NCBI GenBank assembly: GCA_009777515.1
Contig: WRLR01000004.1
Span: 1-64,000, forward strand
From: Oscillospiraceae bacterium
GTDB taxonomy: Bacteria > Bacillota > Clostridia > WRLR01
Reading direction: 5' to 3'
Length of the DNA: 64,000 nucleotides
Shown here: in pieces, positions 5,719 through 47,099 of the stretch
Position numbering within the stretch: the first letter of the stretch is position 1
Layout: each line of letters opens with the position of its first letter
Made by a program: the position numbers and the translations under genes
The notes under the pieces: model-generated
What the model saw: only the letters and a program-made list of their open reading frames with translations
What the model was told of the DNA's origin: nothing
The model's database searches: none

Positions 5719-6690
5719 CTAGGCGCCGAACTCCTCCACGGCTTCTTCGAAGGCGGCGTAGTTCGCGGGCGGGAAGGGCATGCCTTGGTCTGGGCAGCAG
5801 AAGTAGCCCCCGTCCTTGCCCAGCAGTGAGATGGCGTTTTTCACTGCTTCACGGATTTGGCTGCGTGTGCCGTCCATGAGCAGGCCCGTGGAGATGCCGC
5901 CTTTCAGCGCCATTTTGCGGTTTGTGACGGCGACTACGGCGGCCAAGTCGTTCGCCGTGGCTTGGACCGGGTTCAGGATGTCCACGCCGAGGGCGATGAA
6001 CGACGGAAGCAGCGGCTCGATGTGGCCGCATGAGTGGAAATCGATCAGTATGCCACTGGATTTATAAAGCTCGAATAGTCTTTTATATTCGGGCTCGAGG
6101 AATTCGTCAAATATGGCCTGCCCCAACAAGAGCGCGCGCTGCGTGCCCATGTCGTCGCTGAGGCTCACCATGTCCACTCCTGCCTTAATGTAGTGTTTGG
6201 CTATGCCTAGCTGGAAGTCCATGATCCGGCGGAGGATCTCCTTGGCGTACTGCGGATCGGTGTAGAAGTACACCATGATGTTTTCCATGCCGACGAGCAT
6301 GTATGACTTTTCCCAAAGCGCGTCCCTGTGCGATCCGACGAAAAACATTTCATCGCGTTCGTCAAACGCGGCCGCGCTCTCGTAGATGGGGGCGCAAATG
6401 CGCTCGTCGTCCGGGTCCGGCCATTGGTATGAGCGCAGGGCGCCGATCTCGGCGAGAGGGTTGATTTTAGGGAACCCCATGGCGCCCCAGTGCTCCTTGT
6501 GCCACCCGACGCCCCATATATCCGTCCATCTGGCGCCGACAGGCCTTTCGTGGCCATCGATGATACCTGCGTCGCCATAGCCTTGGTGGTTCGCGCCATG
6601 GTACGCAACTACGCGCGCGGGGACGCGCGACATGATGCGATCCGGTTTGCCAAAGTGGATGGTTTCCAAAGCGTTTTGTTTGTCGTTCAT
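5719..6690 (-). CDS. Uroporphyrinogen decarboxylase (URO-D)-family protein, probably methyltransferase-like
   Basis: IDFHSCGHIEPLLPSFIALGVDILNPVQ...GGYFCCPDQGMPFPPANY; start at internal MNDKQNALETI. Confidence 0.8.
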   Translation of the reverse strand: MNDKQNALETIHFGKPDRIMSRVPARVVAYHGANHQGYGDAGIIDGHERPVGARWTDIWGVGWHKEHWGAMGFPKINPLAEIGALRSYQWPDPDDERICAPIYESAAAFDERDEMFFVGSHRDALWEKSYMLVGMENIMVYFYTDPQYAKEILRRIMDFQLGIAKHYIKAGVDMVSLSDDMGTQRALLLGQAIFDEFLEPEYKRLFELYKSSGILIDFHSCGHIEPLLPSFIALGVDILNPVQATANDLAAVVAVTNRKMALKGGISTGLLMDGTRSQIREAVKNAISLLGKDGGYFCCPDQGMPFPPANYAAFEEAVEEFGA

Positions 6691-6811
6691 ATATAACGCC
6701 GTTCGCAGGCCGCGAGCGACCAGCGCACATTTGTAGTATGGCGCCGCGCCGCGGCCCTGCCCTTTCAAATATTTTACGCCGCTGCTGCCAACACTTAAAG
6801 TTTTACCGCTG

Positions 6812-7417
6812 TCATAGGCTGCCTTTTGACGATGGGACGGCACCGCGTCGCGCGGGGTCGGGCTTTACGGCAGCGCCGAGCGCGCGACCGAGCCCTTTGA
6901 ATATCGCCTCGATGATGTGATGGGCGTTGGCGCCATACATCATCTTAACATGCAGTGTCAGCCCGAGCGAGCGGCACAGGCCCAGAAGGAACTCCTGCGC
7001 CAGCTCGGTGTCGAAGTCGCCGACTTTCGGAGCGGGCATGGCGACGTCGTAGTTGAGGTGCGCACGCCCACAGATGTCGAGGGCTATCAGCACCAGCGCT
7101 TCGTCCATCGGCAGGAAGACGCTCGCGTAGCGCGTGATACCGGCGGCGTCGCCGAGAGCCTCTTTTATGCACTGGCCGAGCACGATGCCGGCATCTTCCG
7201 TGAGGTGGTGGTAATCCACGTCCGTGTCGCCGCGCGCGTCGACGGACAGCGCGAACCCGCTGTGGAACGCGAACAGCTCTAGCATGTGGTTCAAAAACCC
7301 GCAGCCCGTGGCGACGCGAATAGAGGGCTCGGAAGGGGCATCGAGAGTAATTTCGACGGTTACTTCAGTCTCCTTGGTTTTTCGCGCTAATATGGCGGTT
7401 CTGTACAATTCGCTCAT
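6812..7417 (-). CDS. hisB: Imidazoleglycerol-phosphate dehydratase
   Basis: GCGFLNHMLELFAFHSGF, DVDYHHLTEDAGIVLGQ, AHHIIEAIFKGLGRAL motifs. Confidence 0.97.
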   Translation of the reverse strand: MSELYRTAILARKTKETEVTVEITLDAPSEPSIRVATGCGFLNHMLELFAFHSGFALSVDARGDTDVDYHHLTEDAGIVLGQCIKEALGDAAGITRYASVFLPMDEALVLIALDICGRAHLNYDVAMPAPKVGDFDTELAQEFLLGLCRSLGLTLHVKMMYGANAHHIIEAIFKGLGRALGAAVKPDPARRGAVPSSKGSL

Positions 7418-7432
7418 TTCATGTCCCTCCGC

Positions 7433-8500
7433 TTATCTGTTTTTACCCATCATGTCGTCCGTCGCGGCGAGCAGCGCGTCCATCTGCTCGTCGGTCCCAA
7501 TTGTTATGCGGACATAATCTTTTATGCGCTCCTGTGGCAGGTGGCGCACCAGTACGCCGCGTTCTTTCAGGCCGAGGTAATAGTCCCTGCCGCTGCCAAA
7601 ACTTGGCTTGGCGAACAGGAAGTTCGCCCTGCTGGGCAGCACGTCGAACATGCGGCCATATAGCGCCAGCACGGCCCGTTCGCGCGAGCTCACTATTTTA
7701 GCCACGCACTCTTCATAATAATCGGAATCGTTGATGGCCGCCTCCGCCGCAAGCAGGGACAGTCTGTTCATATTGTATGGATTGAACGAGAATTTCATTG
7801 TGTTCAAATCGGCGATCAACTCACTGCGCGCCATTGCGTAGCCTACCCTTGCGCCTGCGAGGTTTTTCGATTTGCTCATTGTGTGGACGACGATGAGGTT
7901 GTCGTACTTTGCGATGAGCGGCACTGCGCTCTCGGCGCCGAATGCCGCGTATGCTTCGTCCACGACGACGACGTTGCCGGGGTTCCCCCTGATGATGGCC
8001 TCGATGCCGGCCAGCGGCACGGCGCGGCCGGTCGGCGAGTTCGGGTTGGCGATGAAAACCGTGCCGCCCGCTCCGTAGTAGTCGGACGGGACAAGGCGGA
8101 GCGTGTCGTCCAGCGGAAGCACGCGCGACTCCACGCAGTTTATGCGGGCGTAGACGCTATAGAAGCCGTATGTTATGTCCGCGTACACGGCGGGCGTTTT
8201 CGCGTCGCAGAACGCCTGGAATGCGAACGCCAAAAGTTCGTCGGAGCCGTTGCCGAGTATGATGTTTTCGGGGCCGAGTCCAAGGGCGCCGCTGATGGCG
8301 AGAGCAGCCGAGCGCGTGTCGGGGTCGGGGTAGAGGTTGAGCCTGGCCACCTCCGCAGAGTTGATAGCCGCCAGCACGCCGGGCGACGGCGGGTACGGGC
8401 TTTCGTTAGTGTTGAGTTTGACATAGGAGCGGTCCTGTGGCTGCTCGCCTGGGACATACGCCTCGATGCCGGAGAACCTGCCGGATAAAAATGATGACAT
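7433..8500 (-). CDS. hisC: Histidinol-phosphate aminotransferase
   Basis: NTNESPYPPSP, GNGSDELL, DEAYAAF, SKSKNLAGARVGYA motifs. Confidence 0.96.
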   Translation of the reverse strand: MSSFLSGRFSGIEAYVPGEQPQDRSYVKLNTNESPYPPSPGVLAAINSAEVARLNLYPDPDTRSAALAISGALGLGPENIILGNGSDELLAFAFQAFCDAKTPAVYADITYGFYSVYARINCVESRVLPLDDTLRLVPSDYYGAGGTVFIANPNSPTGRAVPLAGIEAIIRGNPGNVVVVDEAYAAFGAESAVPLIAKYDNLIVVHTMSKSKNLAGARVGYAMARSELIADLNTMKFSFNPYNMNRLSLLAAEAAINDSDYYEECVAKIVSSRERAVLALYGRMFDVLPSRANFLFAKPSFGSGRDYYLGLKERGVLVRHLPQERIKDYVRITIGTDEQMDALLAATDDMMGKNR

Positions 8501-8518: not shown

Positions 8519-9823
8519 TTATTCGAAACGTATTTCTACGCTGCGGGCGTGGGCCTCGAACTGTTCTTGGCGGGCGAACCGGGCGGCGTGCGCCGCGTCC
8601 CTTTGCAGTGCTTCCTTAGTATAATACGTGAAAGACGACTTTTTTACAAAGTCGTCGACCGACAGCGGCGAGGCGAAGCGGGCGGCGCCGTTGGTCGGCA
8701 GGGTGTGGTTCGGGCCCGCCAGGTAGTCGCCCAGCGCTTCCGGCGCGTATGCGCCCAAAAAGACGCTGCCGGCGTGTCGGACTGCGCCGAGCAGCGCGAA
8801 CGGGTCGCGGACGCACAGTTTGAGGTGCTCCGGCGCGACGCCGTCGCTCAGGCGCACGGCCTCTTCTAGCGAAGTGGTCACTGCTATGCGGCAGTTTTCG
8901 GCCAGGGAGCGCTCCGCGATTTCGCGCCTCGGCAGGGTTTCCAATTGTTTTGACAGCTCAACTTTTACTGCGTCGGCGAGCGCTGGGTCAGTCGTTATAA
9001 GCAGCGCTGCGGCCATGGCGTCATGTTCCGCCTGCGCGAGCATATCGGCGGCGACGAAGCGGGCGCGGGCGCTGTCGTCTGCGATTATCAGTACCTCGCT
9101 TGGCCCTGCGATCATCTCGATATCGACCACGCCATAGAGCTGCTTTTTAGCCGTCGACACATAAATATTGCCTGGCCCCGTGATTTTATCGACGCGCGGC
9201 ACGCTGCCTGTCCCAAACGCGAGCGCCGCGATGGCCTGTGCGCCGCCCATCCTGAACACGCGCCCGACGCCCGCGATGCGTGCGGCGGCCAGGATGGCGG
9301 CGTCGCATTTGCCGTCCTTTTGCGGCGGGGAGGCGAGGCATATCTCGCCCACGCCGGCAAGCTTTGCCGGGATGGCGTTCATTAAAACGGTGCTCGGGTA
9401 GGCGGCGGTCCCGCCCGGTATGTACAGCCCTACCCGTTCCAGCGGCATGATGCGCTGCCCGGTGATGACGCCGTCCCGCTCGCCGGTGATTATATAGCCC
9501 TGGCGCAGTTGGCGCTTGTGGTACGCGCCGATGTTGGCTGCGGCCAACTCCAGCGTTTCGATCAGTTCCGGGCTTTCGGCGGCTATGTGCGCAAATGCGG
9601 CCTCGATCTCCTGTGGGTCGACGGCAAGCTCGCCGACGTCGACGCCGTCGAAGCGGAGGGTGTATTCGCGCACGGCTGCGTCGCCGCGCTCGCGGACGTC
9701 CGCGATGATGTCGGCCGCCGTTTGCCCGACGGAGGGGTTGTTCTCCCATATGCGCGCGCGCAGGCGCTCGGGCGAAACGTCTGCGCCGCGCAGGATTTCG
9801 ATGCTGGGGATCGGGTTGTTCAT
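8519..9823 (-). CDS. hisD: Histidinol dehydrogenase
   Basis: ERVGLYIPGGTAAYPSTVLMNAIPAKLAGV, ITGPGNIYVSTAKK, GPSEVLIIAD, EHDAMAAALL motifs; start at MNNPIPSIEIL. Confidence 0.96.
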   Translation of the reverse strand: MNNPIPSIEILRGADVSPERLRARIWENNPSVGQTAADIIADVRERGDAAVREYTLRFDGVDVGELAVDPQEIEAAFAHIAAESPELIETLELAAANIGAYHKRQLRQGYIITGERDGVITGQRIMPLERVGLYIPGGTAAYPSTVLMNAIPAKLAGVGEICLASPPQKDGKCDAAILAAARIAGVGRVFRMGGAQAIAALAFGTGSVPRVDKITGPGNIYVSTAKKQLYGVVDIEMIAGPSEVLIIADDSARARFVAADMLAQAEHDAMAAALLITTDPALADAVKVELSKQLETLPRREIAERSLAENCRIAVTTSLEEAVRLSDGVAPEHLKLCVRDPFALLGAVRHAGSVFLGAYAPEALGDYLAGPNHTLPTNGAARFASPLSVDDFVKKSSFTYYTKEALQRDAAHAARFARQEQFEAHARSVEIRFE

Positions 9824-9877
9824 GTGCGTTCGTCTCCCTTTCATGAATATATTATAGCCTTCCGGCTTTAGCAACAC

Positions 9878-9910
9878 AAAAAACAGCCCCAGGCTTTGGG
9901 CCTGGGGCTG
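9878..9910 (-). terminator. Intrinsic terminator in his leader (attenuator)
   Basis: Minus strand CAGCCCCAGGC-CCAAA-GCCTGGGGCTG followed by TTTTTTGTG; perfect 11-bp stem (9884-9894 / 9900-9910). Confidence 0.9.
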
Positions 9911-9939
9911 CGCGGTTGATGTATCGATATCGGGCGCGC

Positions 9940-10035
9940 CTACCCAAGCCATTGAATGAAATGGCGATGGGCGTGGCTGCTGGCGCGCGAATTGCGGCTG
10001 AACATTGCTATATCGATGGAATAGTCATTTGTCAT
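9940..10035 (-). CDS. Putative his operon leader peptide MTNDYSIDIAMFSRNSRASSHAHRHFIQWLG
   Basis: 31-codon ORF directly upstream of the terminator, with HAHRH His codons; ATG lies ~6 nt after the promoter -10. Confidence 0.55.
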   Translation of the reverse strand: MTNDYSIDIAMFSRNSRASSHAHRHFIQWLG

Positions 10036-10041
10036 GCGCTA

Positions 10042-10070
10042 AATATACCAATGATGCATACGTTTGTCAA
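10042..10070 (-). promoter_or_regulatory. Sigma70-type promoter for his leader/hisDCB (TTGACA-17-TATATT)
   Basis: Minus strand TTGACA (10070-10065), 17-nt spacer, TATATT (10047-10042). Confidence 0.75.
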
Positions 10071-10131: not shown

Positions 10132-13100
10132 TTACGGATTAATTGTTATGGTTGCGTCGTTGCCTACTGTGTAGTAGTCCGATGCGGTCAGGTTCTGCAC
10201 GAATGTGCCTTCGGCTTTGAACGTCCCGGGGTTTATCACCCGCGCATAATAGTAGTACGTATAGTTGCGGTTGAACCTGCTGTTATAGTCGTAGAACATG
10301 ACCTTTTGCCCTACCAACGTGCAGTAGCGGTAATGCCCGTACCCAAAGCTTCTCGAGTCGGATATTTTCGCCGAGTCGTTTACAAACGCGAGGCCCGACG
10401 GCAGATAGTCGGTCACTATGTACGATCCGTCGATGGCTTTCGCGGTATAGTCAATCTTTAACTCGACGCGCACCAAGTCGCCCTGATTGAACGTGGTAGC
10501 AGCAGCTCTTGGGCTACCGGGGCCGCCCGCCGCGCCGCCGCCGCCTGGCAAATCGGCGCCATCCGGAGTTACTTCCTTATAATAAATGCGCTCGACCTTG
10601 ATGTCCTTGTCAGGCGACATTTCCTGCGTCATCGGCGCCTTGTACGACACGACGGCGCCCACCTCGCCTTCCGAGTCCAGCACCTTGAATTCGCCCATGC
10701 GCTGCGACGGGACCATTATTGTGAAGCCCCTTCCGCTCTTTAGCTCAATCGTGTGCTCGTCGCCGAACAGCGAGTAAGTGACCTTGCCGACCGATTCGTT
10801 TTTCTTTGCTATCTCGTGGTTGATATATGTCAGCGTTTCGATGTTTATCAAAATATCCGTCGTGTGGTTCCTGACGCAGTACTGGTACAGCCCTTCGTTT
10901 TCAGGCCTGTCCAGCTTAACTGCGAGGATGGTAGCGGCGGAAGTGGCCGCCAGGATATCGTCGTTGTCGTCGCCCACGTTGACGCGGTAGTAGGGCGCGA
11001 TGTTCTCCAGCCCCGGCGCGACGATCTTGTCGTACAGCGCGGCGGCTTTGTCCGTCTCGCCGAGCGACAGGTACCCCAGCGCGAGATATACGGCGTCCCT
11101 GACCGACAGCTCGCCCAGCTCCGCGTAGCTGTCCAGGTCCAGCAGCACCGGCTCGCGCAGCATCGCCAGCCCGTACAGGGCGCACATCTTGTTGTCCGCG
11201 TTTTCGCCATTGTAAATATTGTACAAATAGTTCTTCAGCTCAAATGTGTTGACGTCCTCCATGATGTACGGCATCAGCTTGACCGTGGTCGTAAGGTCGC
11301 TTTCCGCGTGTGGCAATATGGCCAGCCCGCCGTCGTCGCGTTGGTAGAGCCTTAAGTCAAAGCCGTCCTTATCGCCATAGAGCTTTACGTCCGGGAAATA
11401 TTCGGCCAGCAGCCGGTTGGCCTCGCGGCGCGCCAGGAGCTTTTCCACCCTGTCGCCGTAAATGTAGCGCAGGCCGAGCAGTTGCTGCAAATATGCGCCC
11501 CTGCCCTTGTCTGTAAACGTGATGCGCACAAGGCCCCCGCTGCCAAAGCTGCCGCTCTCGCTGAACGCCATGCCCGCCGCGACGTCGTAGTAGTCGGCGA
11601 AGTCCACTTCCAAGTATGTCTTGCGTACTAAGTATTGGTGCTTGACCGAGTCGCTCAGTCCCGCGACGCCGCTCACGGTCGCTTTGATTATCAGCGCGTT
11701 CTCGCCCTCGGAGGCCATTTCCCACAGCGGGATGTCGACGCGCTCAAATGCCTTGCCGCTCGCCTTAAACACGGCGTCGGGCGCGGCTTCGTCCCAAACC
11801 TCGAACTCTACCGTCTCGCCGCCGGTCAAACCCGTGCCGTAGGCGTTCACGCCAATCGCCGGTTTGTCGCCTATCAGGAACTCGTCGTTTAGCGTATAGT
11901 TAATGAACATCGGGTTGGTGACGATGATGTTGCTTACGCTGTTGCCCGCGTATAGGTCGTTGCTGACGCCGGAGGCGGTCAGGCGCCACGACGTGATGTT
12001 GTCGGGCAGCACGAATGTATACGTGGCCTTGCCGTCCGCGCCCGTTTGGAGTGTTTCGAAAAACGCGGTGTCCTTAAAAATTTCCCGCAGGTAGGTATCG
12101 TCCGCCGACGCTCCGTCCCCAAAGTCCCCATCGGCCATCGCCATCAACGGCGCCGCCGCCATTTCCATTTGGTCGGCGCCGCCAGCGGCCCTGGCGAGGC
12201 GCACATCTTCACTCGGCACGTACAAGCGGTGCGTCGCCGATTCGATCACCACCCCCGGGCCCACTAACGCGTAGAGCGATGCAAGCGTATCCACGCTATA
12301 ATCCCGGAGCGCGAACAGCGCCTCGTCCACTACGCTGATATTGACGCCGGCAGGCACGGCCAGGCCGTCTTTGTCTTCGGAAACAACCGTTATAATGCAT
12401 GTGTCGCCCGGTTTGTACGACTCTTTGTCGGTAGTTACAGTCAGCGCCAGGTCGTTTTGTTTGAAGTCGTAGCGGATCAGCGCGCTCATGTTGTAGTTCT
12501 GTATGTATTTAAAGCCGTCGAAATAATACGCCTTGACCGTTATATTGGGGACGTGCTTCCTGGAGAACGTGGTGCTATATGTGTTCTTGCCCGCCTGCCA
12601 GCCCTGTATCCCGCGCTGCATTTCGACGAACAGGAAGTTCCCACCGGCAACCGCTTCGGCGCCCCGCATGAGCGTGAGGCTGACCGGCGCCCCTATGCCG
12701 TAGTTTTCCTCCTCGCCTTCGAGGAAACACGTGTTGGAGCCGGCATTTTGGTAATAGTAGGTGTAGTCGCGCCCGATATAGACTTTATGTTTTATTTCCC
12801 TGCCGTTGCCGTCGAGGCACGATATCTCTGCGAAATAGCTCTCCCATTTGTTGTCGGGCACGTTAAAGTCCTTTTTGGCGTTGCCGTCTCTGTCCGTCAG
12901 CATCGTGAACCGGTCAATCGACTCTTCCTTGCGCTCATACTTGTATTTGGGCATGTTTTTCTTTTCAATGTAGTCGTAGTAGTCCCCGTCCGGTACTTTA
13001 AGGTAATAGACCCTGTACACGTTGACAGAGAGCGACTTGCCACCTACCGGCTCGTCTAGATAATCAAAGTAGTGCTCCGCGGCGCCGCTGTTGATCCTGT

Positions 13101-15207
13101 CCAGGGTGATGGAATTGACGTCGACTTCGAGCGTCGCGCGGCCGCCCGTCCGGCTGGCTTTTGGGCGCACGTCGATGTCGTTTATAAATGCGCGAACGCT
13201 GGTTTCTTTATATGTCTCGCCGATCTCGGGCAGCGTGGCCTCGGCCCTGAAAGAGATGGAGCGCTCACCCTGCGCGCCGCTCTGGGGCGTGATCTTTTGC
13301 GTTATTGATATAAGGCCGTCGGAGTCGGTCGTAGCCGTGCCCCTTTTGTTATTTTCCAGCATGTAGGCGTAGATGTTGTACGATATGTCCAGATCCGGCA
13401 ACGGGGTGCCCTCGAAGAATTCCGCCCGAGCCGTGAACGTGACCGACTCGCCGGCGAACGCCGCCTTTTTGTCAGCCTCGACTTCGATTTTGTACGGCGG
13501 CTTTACATAGTCCCGCACCTCAAAATAGGTGCTGCCGAGCACTGTGTCGCCATGGTAAATATTTATGTTGTACGAGCCGGGGTCAAGGTTGGGCAGTATC
13601 ATTTCGTCCGAGTACATCCCATTTATGACCTGTACTGTCTGTTTGTGCAGCGTCGATCTGGCGCTGTAGCCGCCGCTCCAATAGCTTTGCGTCAGCACGG
13701 CTGTCACATTATTTATTTCTTCCTTGCTGCCATTGTCCCTGCTCTGGGCGAACCCGAAAAACGAAACCGTGTCGTCGGCTTTAAATAGCGTCCTGTCAAG
13801 CTGCAGGGCCGTCCAATAAGCCTCTGCGCCGCCCGCACCCGCGCCGTAGTAGGGCCCACCCCATCCGTAGCCGTAGTCATAGCCGTAGTAGTAGCCGTAG
13901 CTTTGGCTGTATGTCCAAATGCAGGTTTTGCCGCCGCTCGCATCCGTGACCTCGATGCGCTCGCTTCTGTCAGAGGTCAGCGCCCTGTCGATGACGGCGA
14001 CTCCGTTCGCGTCCGTTTTGAATGTCTTGCCGCCCTTAACATCGCGGACTTCCGCGCCGGCGGACGCCTTGCCCGTCGTCAAGTCGTTGACCCACACGAT
14101 GGCCCTGTCCCCGTCGGCTACGACCTGCACGGGCAGGTCTGTGATTTGGACGATCATCTGGCTGCGGGACTCGCCGAGCACGGCGTCAATCAGGTAGAAC
14201 CCCTGCGTGAGCTTGTCCGGCAGCGTCAGCGTCCTGGTATCGGCGTCGTACCTGGACCTGGCGTTGAATTCCATTATGCTTTGCATGCCGCCCGTTTCGA
14301 TCAGATTGTCGTTCCTGGCATAGCGCGACCATGTCGGCGCGCCGGCCACGGTTTCCACCGCGCTTAGCGCCGCCTCCGCGCCGCCAAACTTGTACACGGC
14401 CACCTTGGGGTCGGGCGTGGTGATGATCCGGTCGTGGTATATGGAGAAACCTACCAACGGGGGCTCGATCGTCGGCAGTTCGGCATAGCCGTAGTAAAAG
14501 CTTACGGACTCCTTGTATGTGGGCGGCTCATAGCTTGGCTCGGCTTCGGTTTCAAAGGCGAACACGTAGTCCGACTGCAGCTCCGTGTTTGTTCCCTCGA
14601 GCCGGACGCCGGCTTTCAGCGTGACTGTGTAAAGCGTTTTGTACTCAAGCCTGCCCTTCGGGACGAACACTGCCGTCTCTTTATGGTATTCGAAACTGCC
14701 GCCCACCTGCGGCGAAATGTCGAAATAGCGGTCTATGGGGCTATAGCCGTCGCTGGAGAACGTTATCTCAATGCCGCTGTTTATCGGCACGTTGGTCGCT
14801 TGGTTGCGCGGGTAGCCCGACGCCACTTGGAACTTTATCGCCGTCTGGAAAGCCCATGTGATATCCGCTCCGTCGACGCGGGACAGCCTGAATATGTACA
14901 ATGAGTTGGGCATAAGCTCGGCAGCGGGGGTTATCAGGAACTCCCGTTTGGTGCTCTGCTCCACGCCCGGCGCGGGTTGACCGTCGATTGACAGCGCCAC
15001 ACCTATTTCGGCGGCTTCGACGTCCAGCGGCGTCGTCAGCTTGAAGGGGCTGGCTGTGTCCACCCCTGTCTTGCCGTACACCAACGGTTCGAGTGTATAC
15101 CCCTCCTTCGCGTCGGGCGCGGCGGAGCTAGCGGGCACTGCAATGTTAATGGGCACACAGCCCACCATCAGGGAAATTAATAAAGTTACAGCGGTTATCA
15201 TCTTCAT
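10132..15207 (-). CDS. Alpha-2-macroglobulin family protein (thioester-less), paralog 1
   Basis: Signal peptide, Ig-like domains, ADDTVSFFGFAQSRD, TDKESYKPGDTCIITV, VNISVVDEALFALRDYSVD, FVLPDNITSWRLTASGVSNDLYAG (A2M domain). Confidence 0.88.
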   Translation of the reverse strand: MKMITAVTLLISLMVGCVPINIAVPASSAAPDAKEGYTLEPLVYGKTGVDTASPFKLTTPLDVEAAEIGVALSIDGQPAPGVEQSTKREFLITPAAELMPNSLYIFRLSRVDGADITWAFQTAIKFQVASGYPRNQATNVPINSGIEITFSSDGYSPIDRYFDISPQVGGSFEYHKETAVFVPKGRLEYKTLYTVTLKAGVRLEGTNTELQSDYVFAFETEAEPSYEPPTYKESVSFYYGYAELPTIEPPLVGFSIYHDRIITTPDPKVAVYKFGGAEAALSAVETVAGAPTWSRYARNDNLIETGGMQSIMEFNARSRYDADTRTLTLPDKLTQGFYLIDAVLGESRSQMIVQITDLPVQVVADGDRAIVWVNDLTTGKASAGAEVRDVKGGKTFKTDANGVAVIDRALTSDRSERIEVTDASGGKTCIWTYSQSYGYYYGYDYGYGWGGPYYGAGAGGAEAYWTALQLDRTLFKADDTVSFFGFAQSRDNGSKEEINNVTAVLTQSYWSGGYSARSTLHKQTVQVINGMYSDEMILPNLDPGSYNINIYHGDTVLGSTYFEVRDYVKPPYKIEVEADKKAAFAGESVTFTARAEFFEGTPLPDLDISYNIYAYMLENNKRGTATTDSDGLISITQKITPQSGAQGERSISFRAEATLPEIGETYKETSVRAFINDIDVRPKASRTGGRATLEVDVNSITLDRINSGAAEHYFDYLDEPVGGKSLSVNVYRVYYLKVPDGDYYDYIEKKNMPKYKYERKEESIDRFTMLTDRDGNAKKDFNVPDNKWESYFAEISCLDGNGREIKHKVYIGRDYTYYYQNAGSNTCFLEGEEENYGIGAPVSLTLMRGAEAVAGGNFLFVEMQRGIQGWQAGKNTYSTTFSRKHVPNITVKAYYFDGFKYIQNYNMSALIRYDFKQNDLALTVTTDKESYKPGDTCIITVVSEDKDGLAVPAGVNISVVDEALFALRDYSVDTLASLYALVGPGVVIESATHRLYVPSEDVRLARAAGGADQMEMAAAPLMAMADGDFGDGASADDTYLREIFKDTAFFETLQTGADGKATYTFVLPDNITSWRLTASGVSNDLYAGNSVSNIIVTNPMFINYTLNDEFLIGDKPAIGVNAYGTGLTGGETVEFEVWDEAAPDAVFKASGKAFERVDIPLWEMASEGENALIIKATVSGVAGLSDSVKHQYLVRKTYLEVDFADYYDVAAGMAFSESGSFGSGGLVRITFTDKGRGAYLQQLLGLRYIYGDRVEKLLARREANRLLAEYFPDVKLYGDKDGFDLRLYQRDDGGLAILPHAESDLTTTVKLMPYIMEDVNTFELKNYLYNIYNGENADNKMCALYGLAMLREPVLLDLDSYAELGELSVRDAVYLALGYLSLGETDKAAALYDKIVAPGLENIAPYYRVNVGDDNDDILAATSAATILAVKLDRPENEGLYQYCVRNHTTDILINIETLTYINHEIAKKNESVGKVTYSLFGDEHTIELKSGRGFTIMVPSQRMGEFKVLDSEGEVGAVVSYKAPMTQEMSPDKDIKVERIYYKEVTPDGADLPGGGGAAGGPGSPRAAATTFNQGDLVRVELKIDYTAKAIDGSYIVTDYLPSGLAFVNDSAKISDSRSFGYGHYRYCTLVGQKVMFYDYNSRFNRNYTYYYYARVINPGTFKAEGTFVQNLTASDYYTVGNDATITINP

Positions 15208-15418: not shown

Positions 15419-18400
15419 TTAATCTATTATAATTGTCGCGTCTTCGCCGGCCGCGCTATATTCCAGCGCGGCCAGGCTCTGCACGAACGCGCCTTCCGCC
15501 TTGTATGTCCCGGGGCTCACGACGCGCGCGTAATAATAATATGTAGCCGCTTCGCCGCCCGGCTGGTCGTTGTAGTCGTAAAAACTGACTTTCTGCCCTT
15601 CGTTTTTGCTGTAGCCGTAATAGCCGAAATAGCCGTAGCTGTAGCCGAAATAATCGTAATAGTCGTAGTCTAGATCTATAACGCGTGGTGTTTTTATTTT
15701 AACAGGATCGCCGGCAAACATGAGCCCTGAAGGCAGATAGTCTGTCACAGAATACGTACCGTCGACGGCTGTCGCGGAGTATGCGATCTGCAGCTCGACG
15801 CGCACCAGGTCGCCCTGGTTAAATACGGTAGAGGCCTCTTCAGGCGCCCTGCCGCCTGCCGGCTCGTCGCCACCGCGTTGCCTGCCACCGGCCCGCGAGC
15901 CGGCTGTGACATCCGGCTTCAACTCCTTATAGTAATTGCGCCGGATTGTTATGCCAGTTTCGAGGGGCAAATTCCCGTCGGGAGGTAAATCCACGCCGGG
16001 GGGCAAATCCCCGTCGCTGGGCAAATCCCCGTCAGGGGATAAATCCCCGCCGCTGGGTTCATCATATGTCATAGGCGCTTTATACGATACGACTGCGCCC
16101 ACATCGCCGGCCACGCCCAATATTTCCAGTTCGCCTATGCTCTGGGACGGTATCGTCAGGGTGTGGCTCCGGCCATCCGAAAGCTCTATCGTGCGTTCGT
16201 CGCCAAACAGCGCGTAGGTGACTGCGCCGACCGAGTCGTGCTTTTTCGCTATTTCGTGTTTAATATACGCGAGTTTTTCGATGCTGGAATCCATGTCTAT
16301 CCGAGCGTCAGCCGCGTGGAAATTGACGCAGTATTGGTACAGACCCTCTTTTTCGGGCCTGTCCAGTTTTGTGGCGAGGGCGGCAGCGGCGGACGTGGCC
16401 GCCAAAATTTTAATGTTGTCACTGCCCTCGTCGACGCGGTAATACGGCTCCAGGCGCTGCAGCTTCGGTGCGACGCGGCTGTCGTACAGCATGGCGGCTT
16501 TTTCCGCCTCGCCGAGAGCCAGATAGCCCAGCGCGATATAGGTCGCGTCGCTTACCGGTAGCGCATCCAGCATCGCGTAGCTGTCCAGCTCCAACAGCAC
16601 GGGTTCGCGTAGCATCGCAAGCCCGTACAGGGCGGCCATTTTGTTTTCCGAATAGCTATTTTCATAAATGTCGTATAAATAATTTTTCAATTCAAAGCCA
16701 TTGATTTCATCCATTACATATGGCATCAATTTTACCGTGGCCTCAAGGTCGCTGTACCCGAAGGGCAGGATGGACAGCCCGCCGTCGTCTTGCTGGTACT
16801 GCTTGCTGTCAACGTCCTCATTGCCACCGTACAATATAAGGTCGGGGAAGTATTCGGCCAGCAGCCGGTTTGCCTCGCGGCAAGCCAGCAGTTTTTCCAG
16901 CCGATCGCCGTAGACGCGGCGCAAGCTTATCAGTTCCCAAAGGAACTGGCCCCTGCCCCGGTCGGTGAACGTTATGCGCGTCAAACCGCCGCTGCCGCCG
17001 CTGAGCGCAATGCCGGCCTCTACGTCGCGGTAATCGGCGGCGTCCACTTCACGGTATGTCTTGTACACCGCGAACGCGTGCACGAGCGAGTCGCTTGCGC
17101 CGTTGCTCGCGGTCGCTTTTATCACAAGCGCGTTCGCGCCCTCCTCCGCCATCTCCCACAGCGGTATGTTTACGCGCTCAAAGGCGCTTCCGCCAGCCCT
17201 GTAAACGATGTCCGGCGCGCCCTCGTCCCAGACCTCGTACTCCACCGTCTCGCCGCCGTCCAGGCTTGTGCCGTAGGCGTTCACGCCAATCACCGGTCGG
17301 TCGCCGACAAGGAACTCGCTGTTTAGCGTGTAGTTTATGAACATCGGGTTGGAGACGATGATGCTCCGTACGCTGTTGCCGGCGTACAGGTCGTCGCTTA
17401 TGCCGGACGCCGTCAGCCGCCACGATGTGATGTTGTCGGGGAGCGTGAATGTGTATGTGGCAATGCCGTCCGCCCCTGTGCGCAGCGTTTCGAAAATGGC
17501 GGTATCCTTAAAGTTTTTGCGTTCATATGTGTTGAATTCCTGCGCATAGCTATCGTTTATGTATCCCAACATCGGCACATCCTCATCATAAACAATGTAG
17601 GAATCGGGCCATCTGCCCTTCGGCGTGTACAGGCGGTGCGTCGCCGACTCGAACACCGGCCCGGCATCCACTTTTGAGTAAAGCGAACTAAGCGTATCAA
17701 CATTATAGTTCCAGAGGGCGAACAGCGCCTCGTCCACTACGCTGATGTTGATGGCGGCAGGCACGGCAAGGCCGTCTTTGTCCCGCGCATTAATTGTTAC
17801 TGTACACGTGTCGCCCGGCTTGTAGGATTCTTTGTCGGCGTCCGCCGTCAGCGTCAGGCCGCTCTGGGAATAGTTGTAGTATATCGTTTGGCTCATCCCG
17901 CCGCCCGTTTCGTATTTGTAGCCGTTGAAATAGTAGGCCCTTATCGTTAAGTTGGGGACATGCTTGCGGGCAAATGTGGCGCTGTACGTATTCCTGCCCG
18001 CCTGCCAGCCCTGTATCCCGCGTTGCAAGGCGACGAACAGCACATTTCCGCCCGCCACTGCGTCTGCCCCGCGCATGAGCGTGATGGCCACCGGCTCGCC
18101 GATACTATATGAATCGTTCGCTCCGCTGAGGTAGTAATCGTTGGTCGCGGCGTTACGGTAATATGAACTGTAGTCGCGCCCGATGTATTCGGTTATATTA
18201 ATGTCCTTACCGTTGCTGTCTGTACAGGAAATTTCGGCATAATAGCTTTCCCATTTAACGTCGGGGACCGAAAAATTCCTATTGGCGGCGCCGTCCTTGT
18301 CCGTCAGCATCGTAAAACTGTCTATAAGCTCCGTTTCGCGTACATACTTATAGCTCGGCACAACCTTCTTTTCATAATAGTCGTAGTACTCACCGTCTGG

Positions 18401-20644
18401 GACGGTTTCGTAATATACTCTGTATATTTTAACCGACAGCGATTTGCCGCCGACCGGTTTATCGATGTAGTCGTTATAATGTTTTGCCGTGCCGCTGTTG
18501 ATCCTGTCCAGCGTGATGGTATTTACATTGATCTTCAGCGTCGCGTCGGCGCCTGTGCGCGAGGCGTTGGCGCGGACGTCGATGTCGTTGACGAAGGCGC
18601 GTGCCCGCGCGGTATTAATGCCCATACCGGTTTGTGGCAAGTACGGCTGCACTTCGATCCCGATGTATTCCTCCCCCTGCGCGTTGGAATAGGGCTTAAT
18701 TTCCTGCGATATGGATATTTTGCCGTCGGCGTCGGTCGTGGCCGTGCCTGCGCCACTGTTGAGAAGGCTGCCGGAGGACACGTAGTAGCTCAAATCCAGA
18801 TCCGGTAGAGGGGTGCCTTCAAAGAACGCCGCCGAGGCCGTGAATGTGACCGTTTCGCCTGCGAACACCGCTTTTTTGTCTGCCGCGACGCTTATAGTAT
18901 ACGGCGGCTTTACGTATTCGCGCACAATAAAATATGTGCTGCTCAGCTCGACGTCGCCATGAAGAATGTTCAAGGTATAATAACCGGGGTCCAGGTTGGG
19001 CAGGGCTATCTCGCCAGAGTATATCCCGTCTTCGACTTGCACGGTCTGTTTTAACAATGGCGTTTCATTGCTGCTCCGGTAATAATAGCGAGACTCCAGC
19101 GTTGCCGTCACATAATTTATATCTTCCTTGTTTCTATAGTCCCGGTTCTGGACGAACCCAAAGAACGATACCGTGTCGTCGGCCCTGAACAGCGTCCTGT
19201 CTAGCTGCAGGGCCGTCCAATAGCTGGCGCTATCATTGCTGTTATATGAGCCTGAGCTGCTGCCGTAGTAGCTGTAGTAGCTGTAGTATTCGGTGTATTG
19301 GCTGTTCAGCCATATGCAGGCTTTGCCTCCGGTTGCGTCCATTATGTCCAGGCGCTCTTTTTCGCCCTGCGCCAGCGCCCTGTCAATGACAGCGACGCCG
19401 TTGGCGTTCGTCGTGTATGTTTTGCCGCCCTTGGCGTCGTGGACTTCGGCGCCGGCCGAGGCCTTGTTTGTCGTTATGTCGTTGACCCAAACGATGGCGC
19501 GGCTTTCGTCAGCCACGATATGCACGGGCAGGTCGGTGATTTGCACAATCATTTGGCTGCGGGATTCGCCGAGCGCGGCGTCGATCAGATAGAAGCCCTG
19601 CGAAAGCATGCCTGGGAGCGTCAGCGTCCGGTTTGCCCGGTCGTACCTGAACTTTGCGTTGAACTCCATCACATAAGCCATGCCGAATGTTTCAATGCGG
19701 TTGTAGAATTTGGCATAACTCGACCAATTCGGCGCTTTTACGAGCGTCTCTAAGGCTGCCAGCGCTTCTTCCGCGCTGCTGAACTTGTACACGCCTATTT
19801 TGGGGTCGGGCGCTGTGTCGGATCGGGCTAGTATCGAAAAGCCTATCGTCGGCGGTTCGATCGTCGGTAGCTCGGCATAATCATATTGGAAGCTGACGGT
19901 TTCCGTTGGCTGGAGCGGTTCATGCTCGATCTCCGCCTCGGTTTCAAAGGAGAACACATGGGCCTCCTGCAGAGCCTCGACCGTCGCTCCCTGCAGGGCC
20001 TCGCCCGTCGCCTCCAGCGAAAGGCCAGCCTTCAGCGTGACGGTATATACCGTTTGATACGCGAGCGCCTTGGGCATGAACACCGCCGTATCCCCGTGGT
20101 ACGCGAACGTGCCGTCCACATGCGGCGATATATTGAAATGGTCGTCAATCGGCCCATAGACTTCGACGGAAAACGTTATTTCAATGCCGCTGTCACAGGG
20201 GACGTTTGTCGCTTGGTTTCGCGGGTAATTGGACGTCACTTCGAATTTATAGGATGTCTGGAACGCCCATGTTATGTCGTCCATGCCGGCGCGCGATAGC
20301 CTGAACACATATATGGTGTTGTGCGACAGCATGGCGGATGGGATTATCAAAAACTCCCTGGCCGCCTTCTGCTCCACGGCTGGGGCGGGCTGGCCGTCAA
20401 TCGAAAGCGCCGCATAAATTTCTTCCGGCCCGGCGTCCTCCGGCGTCGTCAGCGTGAACGGGCTAGCCGCTTCGACCCCCGTTTTGCCGTATGCAAGCGG
20501 CGCGAGCGTGTACCCGCCTTTCGCGACGGGCGCAGGGGCGGGCGCCGCTGTGTCGGCGGAGGCGGGCGCCACCGCAGCATGCCCTGCGGGTACAAGGCCT
20601 ATCAGCAAGGAAAGCGACAACGTAAAAGCGACTAACTTTTTCAC
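15419..20644 (-). CDS. Alpha-2-macroglobulin family protein (thioester-less), paralog 2
   Basis: Collinear with paralog 1 along its length; GTG start VKKLVAFTLSLSLLIGLVPAGHA signal peptide. Confidence 0.88.
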   Translation of the reverse strand: MKKLVAFTLSLSLLIGLVPAGHAAVAPASADTAAPAPAPVAKGGYTLAPLAYGKTGVEAASPFTLTTPEDAGPEEIYAALSIDGQPAPAVEQKAAREFLIIPSAMLSHNTIYVFRLSRAGMDDITWAFQTSYKFEVTSNYPRNQATNVPCDSGIEITFSVEVYGPIDDHFNISPHVDGTFAYHGDTAVFMPKALAYQTVYTVTLKAGLSLEATGEALQGATVEALQEAHVFSFETEAEIEHEPLQPTETVSFQYDYAELPTIEPPTIGFSILARSDTAPDPKIGVYKFSSAEEALAALETLVKAPNWSSYAKFYNRIETFGMAYVMEFNAKFRYDRANRTLTLPGMLSQGFYLIDAALGESRSQMIVQITDLPVHIVADESRAIVWVNDITTNKASAGAEVHDAKGGKTYTTNANGVAVIDRALAQGEKERLDIMDATGGKACIWLNSQYTEYYSYYSYYGSSSGSYNSNDSASYWTALQLDRTLFRADDTVSFFGFVQNRDYRNKEDINYVTATLESRYYYRSSNETPLLKQTVQVEDGIYSGEIALPNLDPGYYTLNILHGDVELSSTYFIVREYVKPPYTISVAADKKAVFAGETVTFTASAAFFEGTPLPDLDLSYYVSSGSLLNSGAGTATTDADGKISISQEIKPYSNAQGEEYIGIEVQPYLPQTGMGINTARARAFVNDIDVRANASRTGADATLKINVNTITLDRINSGTAKHYNDYIDKPVGGKSLSVKIYRVYYETVPDGEYYDYYEKKVVPSYKYVRETELIDSFTMLTDKDGAANRNFSVPDVKWESYYAEISCTDSNGKDINITEYIGRDYSSYYRNAATNDYYLSGANDSYSIGEPVAITLMRGADAVAGGNVLFVALQRGIQGWQAGRNTYSATFARKHVPNLTIRAYYFNGYKYETGGGMSQTIYYNYSQSGLTLTADADKESYKPGDTCTVTINARDKDGLAVPAAINISVVDEALFALWNYNVDTLSSLYSKVDAGPVFESATHRLYTPKGRWPDSYIVYDEDVPMLGYINDSYAQEFNTYERKNFKDTAIFETLRTGADGIATYTFTLPDNITSWRLTASGISDDLYAGNSVRSIIVSNPMFINYTLNSEFLVGDRPVIGVNAYGTSLDGGETVEYEVWDEGAPDIVYRAGGSAFERVNIPLWEMAEEGANALVIKATASNGASDSLVHAFAVYKTYREVDAADYRDVEAGIALSGGSGGLTRITFTDRGRGQFLWELISLRRVYGDRLEKLLACREANRLLAEYFPDLILYGGNEDVDSKQYQQDDGGLSILPFGYSDLEATVKLMPYVMDEINGFELKNYLYDIYENSYSENKMAALYGLAMLREPVLLELDSYAMLDALPVSDATYIALGYLALGEAEKAAMLYDSRVAPKLQRLEPYYRVDEGSDNIKILAATSAAAALATKLDRPEKEGLYQYCVNFHAADARIDMDSSIEKLAYIKHEIAKKHDSVGAVTYALFGDERTIELSDGRSHTLTIPSQSIGELEILGVAGDVGAVVSYKAPMTYDEPSGGDLSPDGDLPSDGDLPPGVDLPPDGNLPLETGITIRRNYYKELKPDVTAGSRAGGRQRGGDEPAGGRAPEEASTVFNQGDLVRVELQIAYSATAVDGTYSVTDYLPSGLMFAGDPVKIKTPRVIDLDYDYYDYFGYSYGYFGYYGYSKNEGQKVSFYDYNDQPGGEAATYYYYARVVSPGTYKAEGAFVQSLAALEYSAAGEDATIIID
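15961..16060 (-). repeat. 18-bp coding tandem repeat encoding (S/P)(P/S)DGDLP units
   Basis: GGDLSPDGDLPSDGDLPPGVDLPPDGNLP in paralog 2 only. Confidence 0.85.
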
Positions 20645-20961
20645 GATACATACCAGCCTTTCAAATAAACTTAAAATTTCATGATAATATATGTAAGTAT
20701 ATGACAAAAGCAAAGCCATGTTAAGCGATTTAATGAATAAATACCTATTTTTATACATTAAATAATATTGTTCTAGGCATACCGAGATCAATAACCATAC
20801 GCCCCGCCCGGTTGCATTTTTACGTATTTTTATTTTGCCTTTCCTTTACAAAATATGATTATTAGCGTAATCTTATGTTGCGGATACTATCGGAAATATA
20901 GAGGGTTAAGCAGGTGGACGCCCCATGGGCGAAGCCTGTTGTGGGGGTGATGGAGAGTCAA

Positions 20962-43817: not shown

Positions 43818-46800
43818 ATGTACATGCGGCGATATCATATATATGTTCCGGCTAAGAGGGCGGCAGCGGCGCTGTGCGCCCTGGCGATGTGTTTTGGGCG
43901 CCCGCCTGCGGGCGCTGCCGCGGCTGCAGCCGCTAACGTGGTTGCAACCGCAGGCGCTACCGTGGCTTCGGCTTCTAGCACTGCCGTGGTTGCAGCCGCA
44001 GGCGCTGCCGTGGTTGCAACCGCTACCACTGGTGCCCCGGGCAGGACGACGGAGCGCGCGCTGAACAACTATGTCGGCTCGCGCGACTACCTCGATGTCC
44101 TGTTCAACATCGATTTTCAGGACATCGGCGGGTCGTGGGCGCGCGACGCGATATACGAGAGCGGGGCGCTGGGCATCGTGAAGGGCTTCGGGGCGCCGCT
44201 GTACTATGGCTCGGTTGTCATGACCAAGGGTGAGGCGCTCGCGCTCGCGGTGCGGGCCGCCGGGCTGGAGGGCGAAGCGCAGGCGGCCGGCGAGGCGATT
44301 GAAGCGGCGGAACGCCTGGCGGGGAGGGCGGCGTCCGGCGCGGAAGCCGTCTGGATCAACGGCGCCCTGCGCGTCGCCGCAGACATGGGGCTTATATCCG
44401 CGCTGGAATATGAGGCGGCGACGGGCAGCGCCCAGGCGCAGGCCCTATCCCCGTTCCGGAGCGGAGCGGTTGCGCAGCGCCAGGAGTTCGCATACTGGCT
44501 GGCGCGCGCGCTGGACATACCACCCGTCAGGGGGCAGGAGTCGGTTTTCACGAACTATTCCGACTGGCAGAGCGTCGACAGCCTGTACGTCCCCTATGTG
44601 GAAGCGGTGCTGCGCGAGCGGATCATGAGCGGGGACGCACTGGGGCGGTTCATGCCGCGCGACGGGCTGACGCGAGAGCAAGCGGCGCAGGTCATTAAAA
44701 ACGCGTCGAAATTCGTGTTCGCGAAAAACGGCTTTGTCGAGTCGACAGGGACCATTGAGAGGATAGAGACGGACGTCGCCGCAGCGCCGGAGGGCGCGGG
44801 CGCGGAGCTCATGCGGGCCAATTATTACATCCGCAACCAGATAGGGCGGTTGGACGTCATAACGACGGAGATAGCGGTCGGCGACAGCGCCGGCGCCGCG
44901 TCCGCCGGGAGGCGGGAGACGGGGCTGGTCGTCAATGCCGGGGGGCTGCTCGAGGACGAGACCGTGCTCAAGACGGGCGACAGGGTGCGCTATATCTCGT
45001 CGCGGAACCGCTATCCGGGGCGCCGCGACGAGATACGGTACATGGAGATCCTGCCTGGAGCAGCGGGCGGCGCCGGGGGCGGCGCAGGCGTGGCCGCCAG
45101 GGCCTATGTACTCGCGCAGATTGACGGCATCGACCACGTGAACCGCAGGATCGCGTTCACGCAGATTTTCCCGCTGGAGTACCCGGACGCGAACAGCCTG
45201 TACCGCGCCGCCGAAGCGCCGCAGGAGCTGCTCCGGCTTTCGGCGGAATACATATACAGCGAAGTCGTCGCCGTCCGCTCGAACGGCGCCCATGTTGACA
45301 TTGGCGCGCTGCAGACGGGCATGGTCGTTATCATCGGCGTGGAGGATTTCCGCAGCCTGTTCTACATCGAGACCGTCATGTTGAGCTACCACCTGGGCGA
45401 GCCGGGCGTCGCGCGGGGGATCATCGAGGAGAACAACCCCGTGCTGGGCTATGTCTCCATGTATAGCGAGTCGGGCGACCGCACTGCCGTTCGCTCGCTC
45501 GGCAGGGAGGGCGAGCGGCCGGAGCTGATGATATACAACTACTCGGACGCGATGGCCGTAGACGTTATGAAAGATGGCGTGGCCGCCTCCCTAGACGCGC
45601 TCTCTGCGGGGGACTCCGCGTTCGTGCGTTTCGACGGGTCGGGCGAGCTTACGGCGATCAGCGCGGTCACCAACTACAAAGAACGCTACGGTACAGTCAT
45701 TTCCGTGCTGGCCGACTCCCTGGTCATCCGGTTCGACGAGGACGCATCCGGGTATACATCCGGGAGCGCGTCCGGCAATCCGCCCGGGAAGGCGTCAGGC
45801 GGCGCCTCCGAGGCGGCGTTCAGCCTGCCGCTGGGCGCTGACGTCATGTACTTCAAGGACTATCGGCTGGCGGGAAAGTCCGCACTCGTACCGGGCGCCT
45901 CCGTGCGCGTGTTGCTGCAGGACCTGGCAGGCGTCACGGTAGTGCGCGAGGTGACGATAATGCACGAGGGCGACCGGGGGCGCGTCGGCAATGTCTACAA
46001 AGCGGTGCTGTCGCGCTTTGACGAGATGTCGAAGAAGGCCGTCGTGTACAACGTGCAGAAGCTTGTAAAGGGTCGGTGGGAATGGGCGGACAGGAAGGGC
46101 TTCGACGCCGTCAACATCGACGCCGAAACGCGCATATATATGGGGAACACGCTTGTCACACCGGCGGGCGCCAACAAGCTGCTGCGCGACAACGAGGTGT
46201 ACATAGCCGTCATGAACGACTACGGCGGCGTGGAGGTAGCGGCGCAGATCAGCGTCAGGGGCGCGGACGACAAAGAGCAGTTATACGACGGCGCCATAAG
46301 GAGCATTAGGCGCTCCACGGGCGTTTTTAGCCTGGCGAACGGGCCTGGCGACATAGCGTTGGGAGACTTTTCCATCATCATTAAGGACGGCTTATTAATC
46401 AGCGGCGCGGCGGTGGAGCAGGACGACCTCGCCTATGTCGTCGCCAGCCGCGAGGACGCGACGGGGCGTATGAGGGCCGAAGTGGTCGAAATCGGCGGCA
46501 GGGCTGACAACACGCGCGTCCGCATATACAGAGGGCGGATATCCAATGTCGTCCTGCACAAAGAGTTCACATTGGAATCCTTTTCCGAGCTGGAGCTGGG
46601 CGGGACGGAGTGGAAGTACGCGAACACGCCAAAGACGTTCTCGCTGACATTCGACACGCTGTTCCTGACCTCCGGAGGGGCCACGCAGCTCAACATGTTC
46701 GACGGCAGGGGGCAGTACGACTATACGGACCCGCCGCGCACCGTCTACGTGCTCTCCGACGGCACGGACGCGCTGGCCATCAGCACTGCGCCGTACGGGA

Positions 46801-47099
46801 TCGAGAACATACGGGGGACGGTCGTCAGCGTCGATGGGGTCGAGCTGGACGAGGACGGCGCCGCGATGTCCGAGCCGGACGGCATGACTATCGGTTGGGT
46901 CTCGTACTACGACCGCGCCAAATTCTCATGGACGCAGAGGAAGGGCGACACGGCTGTAGTCATAGCGCCGAACACGCTGATCATCAAGAACAGCATGCCC
47001 GTCGCCCCGTCTGCCATACGGAAGTCCGACGCGGTGCGCGTGATAAAGTCCGACACCGCTGTCTCTGGCACAGGGTACATTATAATAATCGAGAACTGA
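43818..47099 (+). CDS. Secreted S-layer-homology (SLH) domain protein
   Basis: Signal-like N-terminus; SVFTNYSDWQSVDSLYVPYVEAVLRERIMSGDALGRFMPRDGLTREQAAQVI SLH motif; long beta-rich remainder. Confidence 0.85.
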   Translation: MYMRRYHIYVPAKRAAAALCALAMCFGRPPAGAAAAAAANVVATAGATVASASSTAVVAAAGAAVVATATTGAPGRTTERALNNYVGSRDYLDVLFNIDFQDIGGSWARDAIYESGALGIVKGFGAPLYYGSVVMTKGEALALAVRAAGLEGEAQAAGEAIEAAERLAGRAASGAEAVWINGALRVAADMGLISALEYEAATGSAQAQALSPFRSGAVAQRQEFAYWLARALDIPPVRGQESVFTNYSDWQSVDSLYVPYVEAVLRERIMSGDALGRFMPRDGLTREQAAQVIKNASKFVFAKNGFVESTGTIERIETDVAAAPEGAGAELMRANYYIRNQIGRLDVITTEIAVGDSAGAASAGRRETGLVVNAGGLLEDETVLKTGDRVRYISSRNRYPGRRDEIRYMEILPGAAGGAGGGAGVAARAYVLAQIDGIDHVNRRIAFTQIFPLEYPDANSLYRAAEAPQELLRLSAEYIYSEVVAVRSNGAHVDIGALQTGMVVIIGVEDFRSLFYIETVMLSYHLGEPGVARGIIEENNPVLGYVSMYSESGDRTAVRSLGREGERPELMIYNYSDAMAVDVMKDGVAASLDALSAGDSAFVRFDGSGELTAISAVTNYKERYGTVISVLADSLVIRFDEDASGYTSGSASGNPPGKASGGASEAAFSLPLGADVMYFKDYRLAGKSALVPGASVRVLLQDLAGVTVVREVTIMHEGDRGRVGNVYKAVLSRFDEMSKKAVVYNVQKLVKGRWEWADRKGFDAVNIDAETRIYMGNTLVTPAGANKLLRDNEVYIAVMNDYGGVEVAAQISVRGADDKEQLYDGAIRSIRRSTGVFSLANGPGDIALGDFSIIIKDGLLISGAAVEQDDLAYVVASREDATGRMRAEVVEIGGRADNTRVRIYRGRISNVVLHKEFTLESFSELELGGTEWKYANTPKTFSLTFDTLFLTSGGATQLNMFDGRGQYDYTDPPRTVYVLSDGTDALAISTAPYGIENIRGTVVSVDGVELDEDGAAMSEPDGMTIGWVSYYDRAKFSWTQRKGDTAVVIAPNTLIIKNSMPVAPSAIRKSDAVRVIKSDTAVSGTGYIIIIEN

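Follow-up and report, generated by a model that had tools for sequence, protein, structure and literature searches.

How the hisDCB genes of an uncultured bacterium are controlled is the question raised by a short, histidine-containing ORF that precedes them in the window, the 64,000-nucleotide stretch of DNA analysed here. A first-pass annotation had read this leader as a ribosome-mediated his attenuator. We conclude that hisDCB is probably controlled by a histidine-specific, ribosome-mediated transcription attenuator that appears lineage-specific (probability about three in four). The source genome is a 4.54-Mb draft in 272 contigs (91% complete, 7.5% contaminated), and the family-level comparison comprised two genomes, G001 and G002, each from another genus. 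Its closest HisD matches and its T-boxes point to a probable placement in Bacillota/Clostridia.

The hisDCB locus and its genomic context

The coordinates of the genes and leader features are given in Table 1. The hisD frame is open upstream across the terminator (9952–9823, minus strand) as far as an ATG overlapping the leader-ORF end (ATGGCTTGGGTAG), which is probably due to chance; a hisD start at 9952 was rejected because the extension crosses the terminator and because relatives resemble HisD only from near 9823 onwards. Just 3' of hisB lies a MtaA/uroporphyrinogen-decarboxylase-like gene (5719–6744, minus strand) that scored below family cut-offs; such a gene is unusual next to a his operon. 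On the other side of the leader, two similar genes in tandem (10132–15207 and 15419–20791, minus strand) encode very large proteins of ~1,700 amino acids each, with alpha-2-macroglobulin-like features by eye and no NCBIfam match.

Elsewhere in the source genome, a long-form hisG with an ordinary Shine–Dalgarno sequence and adjacent hisI is located on a separate contig (C112), and contig C10 carries another hisD-like gene (45624–46895), which is distant at 36% identity. Neither hisZ nor a member of the trpE family was found in the source genome, and no similar leader was found there upstream of hisG or leuA. Family member G001 encodes hisZ and a hisG of ~216 codons, unlike the long-form hisG of the source genome; two forms of the first His-pathway enzyme thus occur inside one family.

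Table 1. Features of hisDCB and its leader in the window
Feature	Positions	Strand	Details
hisD, histidinol dehydrogenase	8519–9823	-	TIGR00069, E 9e-160; start ATG 9823–9821; Shine–Dalgarno GGGAG
hisC, histidinol-phosphate transaminase	7433–8500	-	TIGR01141 above cut-off
hisB, imidazoleglycerol-phosphate dehydratase	6812–7417	-	NF002111 and NF002114 above cut-off
-35 hexamer TTGACA	10065–10070	-	6/6 match, 17-nt spacer
-10 hexamer TATATT, TG in front	10042–10047	-	5/6 match
Leader ORF, 31 codons and stop, predicted leaderless	9940–10035	-	Sequence; ATG at predicted +1
Regulatory codons CAC GCC CAU CGC CAU (HAHRH, codons 21–25)	9961–9975	-	Sequence
Protector hairpin	9942–9972	-	9972–9960 with 9953–9942 (WLG codons and stop-codon U); MFE fold
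GGCUUGGG, shared segment, antiterminator 5' strand	9943–9950	-	
CCCAGGCC, antiterminator 3' strand (terminator 5' arm and one loop base)	9899–9906	-	
Inner antiterminator stems	9910–9939	-	9939–9935 with 9914–9910; 9931–9929 with 9920–9918
Intrinsic terminator	9878–9911	-	Arms 9911–9900 and 9894–9883; T-run to 9878; -26.3 kcal/mol
Second promoter-like site, TTGTGT-17-TATAAT	9851–9879	-	3' of terminator; sequence

Parts of the leader

The near-consensus promoter reported before the leader ORF (TTGACA-17-TATATT) is present at its place with 11 of 12 matches, where 0.8 sites are expected per shuffled region. The 31-codon ORF has its ATG (10035) 7 nt past the -10 box, at about the predicted +1 as originally described, and translates to MTNDYSIDIAMFSRNSRASSHAHRHFIQWLG followed by a stop; an in-frame TAG two codons 5' of this ATG makes an earlier ORF start impossible. 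The predicted His cluster was borne out and consists of only three His codons (21, 23, and 25), which alternate and form no tandem run. The strong terminator with T6 noted after the ORF (9911–9883) has 12 pairs, the last one G-U, and a 5-nt loop. A short ORF with His codons is therefore located between a promoter and a terminator ahead of his genes, which is the arrangement expected of a his attenuator. Within the promoter (spacer and -10), a 6-codon ORF with two His codons (10058–10038, minus strand; MHHWYI and a stop) would be readable only with a transcription start further upstream.

Mutually exclusive pairings and ribosome position

The leader fold had a z-score of -4.5. Without translation, the WLG codons and the His-codon region together form the protector hairpin (-18.4 kcal/mol for the piece 9980–9938). 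Segment GGCUUGGG of the WLG codons alternatively pairs, unbulged, with CCCAGGCC (9906–9899), i.e., with the terminator left arm and one loop base, and the stalled-state fold with this antiterminator has an energy of -25.6 kcal/mol. Protector, antiterminator, and terminator helices are mutually exclusive, as in a ribosome-mediated his attenuator. The first-pass annotation had used the WLG segment as one antiterminator strand, but had paired it with 9900–9892 (loop and right arm); we rejected this partner because it leaves most of the terminator left arm free. The GCGCGCC/GGCGCGC pairing (9988–9982 with 9940–9934) that it listed does exist.

The nascent RNA was folded up to the terminator loop with the bases under the ribosome masked codon by codon, and sequestration of the terminator left arm by upstream RNA was used as readout. 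When the A site was at any of the three His codons (21, 23, 25), sequestration was 0.79; it was 0.75 at codons 19–20, 0.67 at codon 26, 0.06 at codon 28, and 0.00–0.02 from codon 29 to the stop; in the untranslated leader it was 0.32, with a probability of 0.08 for the exact antiterminator helix. The antiterminator was maximal at A-site codons 19–26, which cover all three His codons, and a ribosome on these codons, unlike one at the stop, frees the antiterminator. With the ribosome at the stop, protector and antiterminator were both absent and the terminator folded. Folding thus upheld a three-state attenuator, with pairings better than those first proposed; computation shows each part, how the three pairings exclude one another, and how ribosome position governs them. 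The positive control, E. coli hisL, yielded 0.77–0.79 on its His codons and 0.0 when untranslated. Unlike the window leader, hisL kept its antiterminator (0.78) with the ribosome held at the stop codon, where the ribosome is released according to the classical model. Equilibrium folding of the full-length RNA favoured the terminator in all states, and the switch must therefore be kinetic and operate while the RNA is being made, as known attenuators do.

We infer the transcription start, the translation of the leader, and the response to histidine. Transcription would begin at or beside the A of the leader ATG, and a ribosome would initiate at the 5' AUG without a Shine–Dalgarno sequence and trail RNA polymerase. 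With scarce charged tRNA-His, it would stall at His codon 21, 23, or 25 and cover the left strand of the protector; the freed GGCUUGGG would capture CCCAGGCC in the terminator left arm before the right arm exists, and RNA polymerase would enter hisDCB. With plentiful histidine, the ribosome would reach the UAG and cover GGCUUGGG, and in an untranslated leader the protector hairpin would keep GGCUUGGG; in either case the terminator would fold.

Chance expectations

Of 10,000 dinucleotide-shuffled leaders, 322 sequestered the arm with the ribosome stalled, 80 in addition lost this sequestration at the stop, 20 showed the full three-state logic (also low when untranslated), and three showed it for all three His codons. 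One of 29 stringent terminators of the source genome behaved similarly in all three parts, and that one may be the window's own. At least three His within five residues were encoded by 39 of 8,807 short ORFs (0.44%). The scan of terminators preceding a gene returned two ORFs with a His cluster, one of them the window leader, and no second convincing attenuator was found among the other cluster-bearing short ORFs before terminators (~1.2 Mb of the source genome). Although not strictly independent, the shuffle and His-cluster figures together make a coincidence ahead of a his operon unlikely.

Search for counterparts in relatives

Conservation of the leader in relatives, which had been proposed as a check, gave no support, as the leader was found in no other genome searched. 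No counterpart was recovered when 99 relatives and 31 GTDB-contig loci were searched with HisD as the anchor, nor when 800 nt 5' of hisD were inspected at 29 loci. In 20 genomes of the class, most with hisZ-hisG first in the operon, ~5 kb 5' of hisD contained no His-rich ORF directly before hisZ-hisG. No convincing match to the leader peptide was obtained in 391 class genomes; in a pattern search of 391 genomes for leaderless HHH leaders, the in-frame ones among the matches with inspected flanks had no downstream his gene recognisable by eye. Within the family, the contig of G002 ends within hisD; G001 (hisZ-hisG-hisD-hisC) is the only informative member, and it has no leader before hisZ.

Alternative explanations

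Control of the operon by a T-box or riboswitch, which the first-pass annotation had itself set against its reading, has next to no probability. T-boxes govern his genes in many Firmicutes (PMC9413887), and the source genome has T-boxes, which precede valS, gatC, and other non-his genes. The leader, however, matched neither T-box RF00230 nor a riboswitch even at relaxed threshold, no Rfam cis-element scored above cut-off in it, and the ORF fills most of the ~125-nt span from +1 to the terminator. A TrpR-family repressor (PF01371; the family of HisR) was likewise not found in the source genome (91% complete), G001, or G002. It is also rather unlikely that the hairpin is an ordinary 3' terminator of the upstream alpha-2-macroglobulin-like gene (stop 10132), with hisDCB transcribed from its own promoter at 9879–9851 and the His ORF and pairings coincidental. 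This would fit with the lack of another detected terminator between 10132 and 9911, with TTGTGT-17-TATAAT directly following, and with the good Shine–Dalgarno sequence of hisD, but a near-consensus promoter between gene and terminator would be purposeless, and the three-state logic and the His cluster, each rare by chance, co-occur ahead of the his operon. With its own promoter and terminator, the ORF makes up a complete unit, which might be an independent gene of ~155 nt for a small RNA or a small protein; terminated attenuator RNA can indeed work in trans, e.g., S. meliloti rnTrpL (PMC7298713). We regard this as quite improbable, because small-RNA matches were weak and far below Rfam cut-offs, and the His-codon-tuned switch and its placement before hisD would be left unexplained. 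Ribosome-mediated his attenuation, as first proposed, thus stands on the architecture, on the masked folding with its hisL control, and on the lack of a detected his T-box or HisR, while the original antiterminator partner had to be replaced.

How the attenuator is translated is a separate matter. As first noted, a clear ribosome-binding site is missing: neither in-frame ATG of the leader has a Shine–Dalgarno sequence, with anti-Shine–Dalgarno duplex energies of -2.8 kcal/mol at ATG 1 and +0.3 kcal/mol at ATG 11, compared with -8.4 kcal/mol at hisD. Judging from the promoter alone, the leader peptide possibly has a leaderless start. The more far-reaching proposal is that a probable clostridial lineage, in which leaderless translation is otherwise unseen, independently evolved a his attenuator driven by a leader peptide that is truly leaderless (AUG at the 5' end), and that 5'-AUG initiation couples the first ribosome to RNA polymerase; we hold it tentatively, its odds falling just short of even. 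The same attenuator may instead not be leaderless, either with transcription starting further upstream or with initiation at the internal ATG 11 (10005) without Shine–Dalgarno sequence, which is a minority possibility; being a variant of the best explanation, it shares part of that confidence. All His codons and switch pairings are 3' of ATG 11, so that the switch logic is the same from either start. Firmicutes have few leaderless genes (PMC3160421), and no genome-wide leaderless signal was seen: -10 boxes were not enriched just 5' of starts in 455 kb of the source genome, for which gene starts were called crudely. Against a later or more upstream start, ATG 11 also lacks a Shine–Dalgarno sequence, the near-consensus promoter sets +1 at ATG 1, and the 5'-most 18 nt of the leader, unpaired in the MFE fold, suit 5'-AUG initiation.

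The second promoter-like site, at which the promoter scan listed an overlapping TTGCTA-17-TATATT (9851–9879), could bypass the attenuator and give basal hisDCB expression. An in-frame ATG (9844–9842, minus strand; within 9850–9821) lies at its predicted +1, and hisD might have a leaderless start there besides the Shine–Dalgarno-led start at 9823.

Relation to known attenuators

The window leader resembles enterobacterial hisL (RF00514) in its His-codon leader peptide, protector, antiterminator, and terminator, and in its masked-fold behaviour on His codons and when untranslated. It differs in having three alternating His codons instead of seven in tandem, no Shine–Dalgarno sequence, and no sequence similarity or match to the his_leader covariance model even at relaxed threshold, and it precedes hisD, whereas the hisL attenuator precedes hisG.

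The premise that his genes are more often T-box controlled holds for many Firmicutes, but leader-peptide his attenuators are less exceptional there than it assumed (PMC9413887, PMC2965389). Firmicutes leader-peptide his attenuators are described where HisR and a his T-box are absent (Ashniev et al. 2022, PMC9413887), and His leader peptides in bacilli by Naville and Gautheret 2010 (PMC2965389); the candidates in these descriptions belong to the B. cereus group, Peptostreptococcaceae, Lutispora, and Erysipelotrichales. Compared by description, they share with the window leader a His-codon peptide, a terminator and an antiterminator before his genes, and genomes without HisR or his T-box, but have 3–5 consecutive His codons and occur in other lineages; the passages describing them make no mention of a leaderless start. 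An attenuator RNA with its 5' end at the leader-ORF AUG is known from S. meliloti trpL/rnTrpL (PMC7298713), which concerns Trp and Alphaproteobacteria, and the same 5' end is reported for mycobacterial polycysteine leaderless ORFs (Canestrari et al. 2020), which concern Cys and Actinobacteria. Because Firmicutes His attenuators and leaderless leader peptides elsewhere have been reported, the window leader is most likely a new example of an already known kind of attenuator.

For a phylum that mostly uses HisR or T-boxes for its his genes, the leader is an additional his attenuator, well formed and apparently specific to its lineage, and it fits a repeated origin of attenuators where HisR or T-boxes have disappeared. 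Should the start prove leaderless, a probable clostridial lineage would provide a case of a leader peptide that can function with no ribosome-binding site.
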